Origin: Candidatus Moraniibacteriota bacterium
Lineage (GTDB): Bacteria; Patescibacteriota; Minisyncoccia; Moranbacterales; UBA1568
Assembly (NCBI GenBank): GCA_023261695.1
Contig: JAHFON010000005.1
Coordinates: 1-48,403 of the forward strand
Length of the DNA: 48,403 nucleotides
Direction of reading: 5' to 3'
In this document: positions 17,335-18,205 of the stretch, in pieces
Layout: each line of letters starts with the position of its first letter
How positions within the stretch are numbered: the stretch's first letter is position 1
Position numbers and translations under genes: made by a program
The notes under the pieces: generated by a model
Databases searched by the model: none
What the model was told of the DNA's origin: nothing
The model's input: only the letters and a program-made list of their open reading frames with translations

Positions 17335-17539
17335 ACAAATGTGATTTTGTAGTTATTATTCATGGCGGTTTTTCCATGATGGGGAGGAAAGTTCTGGATT
17401 GCCCGGCATGGAAGCTTCTTTGTGCCTGCAGGTACGATTCGCCATCAAAGTAACTAAACCGGGCTACTGATAGTCTATTGTTGCTCCTGCTTCTGTTGCC
17501 TGCTGTTGTAGATCTCTTATGATTTTCTGCTATTATTAG

Positions 17540-18205
17540 CCTTCTTTTGTTTGTTATTTCCTGTATTCTTTTTTCCGAATTTAGCTCAATTGGGCAAGAG
17601 GGGGGAGTATGCCGTCCGATTGGTACGTCATTATGGTCCTGTGTATTTGATTCCGTTGTTTCTCGGAATACACGTCTGACTGACTATCGGTACCTGGATC
17701 TCACAGGATTTTCGGCGACTCGCCCATAGACTATTTCCACTAGCTTTCGATTGCCGTACCGTTTTGGTATGTCATATGTACGCCCATCAGTAGGACAACG
17801 TACACGTTTACATCTCTTCTCTGATTTTCCTAATACGGGCTAGGGGTCTGATGAGACCTGTAACATAGATATCAGGTCACTAGCTCGTATTGGGCCCTAG
17901 ATTGCTGTCTAGAGAGCATCAGGAGGAGTCGTTATTTTAATGGCGTCCAGCAGGCGGATTAACGATTGCCTCCACACCCTGCCAGTAACTCCGCATCGGC
18001 ATTGCTACCTTTGCAACGTACCGAGCTTTATTAGCGTTCGGTCGCTCACCCCACATTTTATTGAAAGGTAGGAACCAAAATCACACTGCAATTTTGATTC
18101 CTACTGAAGATTATCAAAGTACCAAAAACTTCTTCGAAAATCAGTCAATTTTCGGTATTTTAATGGAAACACAATAAAAAAGCGCTTTATAGCGCTATTT
18201 TTGTC
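17540..18205 (+). ncRNA. Candidate large structured non-coding RNA (~0.65 kb)
   Basis: No plausible CDS; upstream tgctattat at about 17530; many hairpins (gtgtatt...ggaatacac; tgtacg...cgtaca; aatacgggctag...ctagctcgtatt; gcgga...tccgc; gtaggaaccaaaat...attttgattcctac); ends in aaaaagcgctttatagcgctattttt. Confidence 0.4.
18176..18203 (+). terminator. Intrinsic terminator
   Basis: aaaaaagcgctttatagcgctatttttg. Confidence 0.75.

Follow-up and report, generated by a model that had tools for sequence, protein, structure and literature searches.

The window analysed here, a whole 48-kb contig (48,403 nt) from a Patescibacteria genome, carries a mobile element with a large serine recombinase (Table 1). 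Between the element's zinc-ribbon-like gene (minus strand) and its symE-like gene (plus strand) lies a stretch (17,340-18,380) that has no credible gene, and whose longest open stretches match no protein family of Pfam or PHROGs; this bears out the initial annotation, which had seen no credible open reading frame at this place and had proposed a large structured RNA there. The zinc-ribbon-like protein itself stays below the cut-offs of Pfam, PHROG, NCBIfam and PADLOC for every family, its predicted fold is of too low quality (pLDDT 51) to be informative, and its family is found without the RNA too. A short protein with a resolvase N-terminal domain is encoded at 19282-19740, directly before the large serine recombinase.

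Table 1. Positions in the window of the candidate RNA, its predicted structural elements and the neighbouring genes.
Feature	Position	Strand	Remarks
Zinc-ribbon-like protein, 170 aa, downstream of RNA	16822-17334	-	same order in L014
Candidate conserved structured RNA, ~510 nt	17590-18103	-	L014 identity, consensus fold, 13 helices
Helix 4 (long-range), 3' side	17604-17608	-	
Helix 13, 3' end	17609-17631	-	
Helices 11 and 12, GUGUAUUCCG hairpin	17641-17673	-	two compensatory pairs
Pseudoknot helix 10, 3' strand	17676-17680	-	
Helices 8 and 9	17769-17813	-	three compensatory pairs
Pseudoknot helix 10, loop strand	17786-17790	-	partner 17676-17680; two compensatory pairs in five
Variable arm, long hairpin in window	17828-17888	-	
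Helix 7, CUCUAGA/UCUAGGG	17895-17914	-	
Helices 5 and 6, most conserved domain	17947-17985	-	one compensatory pair
Helix 4 (long-range), 5' side	17988-17992	-	partner 17604-17608; one compensatory pair
Helix 2	18015-18046	-	one compensatory pair
Helix 1, 12-bp hairpin, 5' end	18072-18100	-	
Upstream block, common to the Azambacteria element and the same-genus element without RNA	18104-18204	-	-10-like GATAAT at 18115-18110; DNA match to the same-genus element 18098-18204
Terminator-like hairpin, symmetrical	18181-18196		bidirectional; upstream of minus-strand RNA, outside it
SymE-like (AbrB-fold) protein, divergent from RNA	18536-18724	+	PF08845, E = 3.8e-7
Element's large serine recombinase, directly upstream of ychF	19755-21350 (also given as 19755-21542)	+	

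With the zinc-ribbon protein as bait, the GTDB contig collection yielded a Candidatus Azambacteria locus (L014) whose intergenic positions 5400-5939 are 71% identical over 579 bp to window positions 17,590-18,151. This copy is likewise non-coding, the order zinc-ribbon gene, RNA and SymE gene is kept in both elements, and the comparison of homologues that the initial annotation had called for reveals compensatory changes in paired positions. The last conserved bases lie near 17,590, and the span proposed at first, 17530-18205, gives way to approximately 17590-18103. The homologue is so far a single one: DNA searches in close relatives matched only the upstream block, in a same-genus element (G005), and further searches brought up no copy other than that of L014. 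They comprised DNA comparison with 131 genomes from the order, 384 from the class and 8 from the order of Azambacteria, scans with a core covariance model over 380 genomes from the phylum and 131 from the order, and searches of phages and plasmids, of IMG/VR (pattern search followed by the covariance model) and of the loci of zinc-ribbon and recombinase relatives. Weak matches in two further loci (L018 and L019) are due to chance, as is a weak model match in L044, which overlaps another RNA (LOOT, see below) and reflects a chance match of stems.

A minus-strand frame at 17360-17839 is interrupted by a single internal stop, as might be expected of a gene in decay. However, substitutions relative to the homologue are equal across codon positions (50/169, 49/170 and 47/168), indels of 1, 2, 5 and 21 break every frame, and no protein similarity for the stretch came to light, whether with the proteins of the same-genus element, with six-frame pieces or with Pfam and PHROGs; decayed coding sequence, which the initial annotation had named among the outcomes that would refute it, is thereby ruled out. 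The preservation of the stretch between distant lineages speaks against chance structure as well as decay, and the probability that we leave to the two together is negligible. The stretch is conserved and non-coding, and it carries compensatory pairs.

The two cores were aligned and their consensus was folded for each strand, with 200 column shuffles for comparison, in which local conservation and gaps were preserved. The minus-strand consensus has an energy of -101.8 as against -69.0±5.8 in the shuffles (z = -5.6; 0/200 as good) and contains 18 compensatory pairs as against 9.5±2.6 (0/200 as high), each of which, in an alignment of two sequences on which the helices were also picked, may stand for a single event. 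Four coding alignments from the same two elements and the neighbouring ychF (62-67% identity) served as controls and had no compensatory excess on either strand, but some of them reach an energy z near -3, so that energy alone is a weak argument. Single-sequence folds are less telling: against dinucleotide shuffles, z is -3.9 for 17530-18205 (20 shuffles) and only about -2 for the conserved core (100 shuffles). The structure and conservation of the candidate RNA nevertheless appear well supported, and a conserved non-coding stretch with covarying helices, albeit in two sequences, would belong by its general kind to the large structured non-coding RNAs.

The initial annotation had placed the RNA on the plus strand, and this reading can draw on several observations. 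The window's single-sequence fold is as good on the plus strand as on the minus strand, some conserved inverted repeats pair on the plus strand too, and the plus-strand consensus itself attains z = -2.5 with 17 compensatory pairs (9.6±2.9 in shuffles; 2/200 as high). However, helices that are 7 bp or longer and carry at least two compensatory pairs number two on the minus strand (0/200 shuffles) and one on the plus strand (12/200); a strand-neutral wobble count does not separate the strands at 5 bp (16 versus 14) and favours the minus strand only among helices of at least 6 bp (5 versus 1). Moreover, the plus-strand fold of the homologue barely improves on that of shuffles (z = -0.9), and nothing like the extended -10 box (tgctattat) that had been noted upstream of the plus-strand RNA is conserved in the homologue. 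A plus-strand RNA is thus improbable in our judgement, and comparative evidence makes it probable that the RNA lies on the minus strand.

The minus-strand model comprises 13 helices with 90 pairs, all of which are standard in both sequences and 10 of which are changed on both sides; sliding the partners by 1-3 columns destroys the model, every such control collapsing. Two helices of 7-8 bp carry two compensatory pairs each. In this model the 5' and 3' domains are joined by long-range helix 4, and helix 7 together with UGCU/AGCA possibly forms an H-type pseudoknot, as judged by inspection only. All the stems named in the initial annotation exist, and three of them, gtgtatt/ggaatacac, tgtacg/cgtaca and gtaggaacc/ggttcctac, correspond to helices 11, 9 and 1 of the predicted conserved structure, the former two with compensatory changes. 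The arm aatacgggctag...ctagctcgtatt is likewise present; it is, however, the variable arm, the L014 counterpart of which is a shorter hairpin of different sequence, with homology of the two hairpins judged by inspection.

The block upstream of the RNA is its probable promoter region; a match to a minus-strand sigma-70 consensus was not recognised there. Transcription could plausibly begin near 18,103, given that the 5' edge of helix 1 is at 18,100 and that a conserved CTTT-(G/A)-TAAT-like block lies a few bases above it. The hairpin that had been taken for the closing terminator of the RNA lies on its upstream side once the RNA is read on the minus strand, and it is present in the G005 sister element without the RNA as well. 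At the opposite end, no intrinsic terminator was found to separate the RNA from the zinc-ribbon gene in the window and none was seen in L014, so the two may be co-transcribed. This would be in keeping with a structured 5' leader that regulates the zinc-ribbon mRNA in cis, as would the adjacency of RNA and gene on the same strand in both elements and the L014 start codon 60 nt past the RNA end. On the other hand, the gap to the gene is not conserved (~60 nt in L014, ~250 nt in the window), neither a conserved sequestration of the ribosome site nor a conserved terminator hairpin is found at the RNA's 3' end, and the RNA would be an unusually large leader. We hold it fairly unlikely that the stretch is a leader of this kind, and lean towards an RNA that would act in trans rather than solely as the leader of the downstream gene.

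The recombinase lies directly upstream of, or overlaps, the ychF start in each of the eight loci spanning the junction (the window, at 19755-21542 and from 21352 onward, L039-L044 and L046), and its relatives just upstream of ychF in seven other genomes are 56-60% identical, which suggests that ychF is the integration site of this recombinase family; the ychF upstream regions of comparable same-genus genomes have no similarity to the recombinase. The RNA is present in two of eight ychF-recombinase loci, those of the window and of Azambacteria. Two other regions upstream of the recombinase (L040 12900-13500 and L042 3600-4100) have few long open reading frames and are 69% identical over 333 bp; neither has an Rfam match.

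When the eight ychF-recombinase loci were scanned, six contained a different RNA, LOOT (RF03000), at 11219-11339 in the window, L039 10070-10190, L041 8200-8314, L043 7838-7971, L044 9067-9192 and L046 386-502, and so did a further two loci that carry the zinc-ribbon gene (L012 18456-18586 and L015 2649-2771), but none of 10 short ychF loci of relatives that were fetched without regard to the element. LOOT RNA may hence be an RNA of mobile elements that travels with the same elements.

The same-genus element of G005 (L012 9154-12721) has another recombinase and another site; it has the same upstream block, SymE-like gene and zinc-ribbon gene, and where the window has the RNA it carries a topoisomerase-like gene (phrog_6247) and an HUH Rep gene (PF23343). 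That this operon takes the RNA's place suggests, rather than demonstrates, a role of the RNA in the upkeep of the element. It could also be cited for a function at the DNA level, namely a replication or transfer origin, rich in hairpins, that would fold as a single strand and be used by the excised element; hairpins are present, and no Rep gene is seen near the stretch in the window or in the L014 element. However, one-sided changes in the model go to G-U pairs, which are best tolerated in RNA, and known single-strand origins are smaller than this stretch of ~500 nt with its long-range and pseudoknot pairing. An origin of this kind therefore strikes us as very unlikely.

Taken together, we give somewhat better than even chances to a minus-strand RNA of ~510 nt that acts as an RNA and forms a module of serine-recombinase integrative elements. 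A promoter near 18,110 would drive leftward transcription from ~18,103 to 17,590; the transcript would fold into a compact, pseudoknotted structure closed by a long-range helix between its 5' and 3' parts, and would function as RNA and not as a message; with the zinc-ribbon gene and the symE-like gene it would make up the module. Since the same upstream block precedes the topoisomerase-like/Rep operon in the sister element, the RNA might conceivably serve the element's own maintenance, possibly with the zinc-ribbon protein as its partner, a proposal that we put forward only tentatively. Bolder, and with only a slim chance of being right, is the idea that, in integrative elements of Patescibacteria, large pseudoknotted RNAs of a new class replace the Rep operon and that the element replicates or persists by an RNA-based mechanism.

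The core of the original proposal, a large structured RNA of a mobile element that matches no known family, holds up in the tests run, on two sequences. A cmscan search of window positions 16700-19300 and L014 5000-6100 (4227 Rfam families, E up to 10) gave no match above chance to the candidate RNA, and in neither copy is a match to the ROOL, GOLLD or OLE covariance models listed. LOOT RNA, a structured RNA of the same elements, is unrelated by covariance model, has 121 positions and is a separate gene. The Intron_gpI model finds no group I intron in the RNA region; two are located in the window's 23S rRNA gene (59-332 and 1150-1346). A group II intron is rejected for want of an Rfam match and of a domain V recognisable by eye. 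RNase P RNA had come into consideration through the motif GAGGAAAGT at 17385, but this is not conserved in the homologue, and the RNase P of the genome is encoded on another contig.

Few RNAs of such size have conserved structure, and what they do is mostly an open question. The candidate adds one from ultra-small, mostly uncultured bacteria that is linked to one defined family of elements; the apparent exchange between it and a replication operon, each preceded by the same upstream block, would provide a specific context in which the roles of such RNAs can be tested. OLE RNA, a large ornate bacterial RNA, is broadly similar to it in size; the candidate differs in having no Rfam match, and the partner proteins and host range of OLE presumably do not apply to it. 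GOLLD RNA is a large ornate RNA of mobile DNA, many examples of which exceed 800 nt and which is often found near tRNAs (PMC12286853); the candidate shares with it large size and mobile DNA, without an Rfam match. The comparison with ROOL and GOLLD made in the initial annotation holds as a loose analogy and not as membership: there is no Rfam match, and with the nearest tRNAs at 6621-6693 and 33641-33713, the candidate has no tRNA island near it of the sort that often goes with ROOL and GOLLD. ROOL RNA is large, pseudoknotted and non-coding, resides on mobile DNA and has no known function (PMC12286853). The candidate is likewise large, non-coding, predicted to be pseudoknotted and on mobile DNA, and differs from ROOL in its occurrence in Patescibacteria, in the protein gene directly downstream and in its distance from tRNA genes; we regard it as a candidate new RNA family that resembles, as a kind, the large and ornate RNAs found on mobile DNA.
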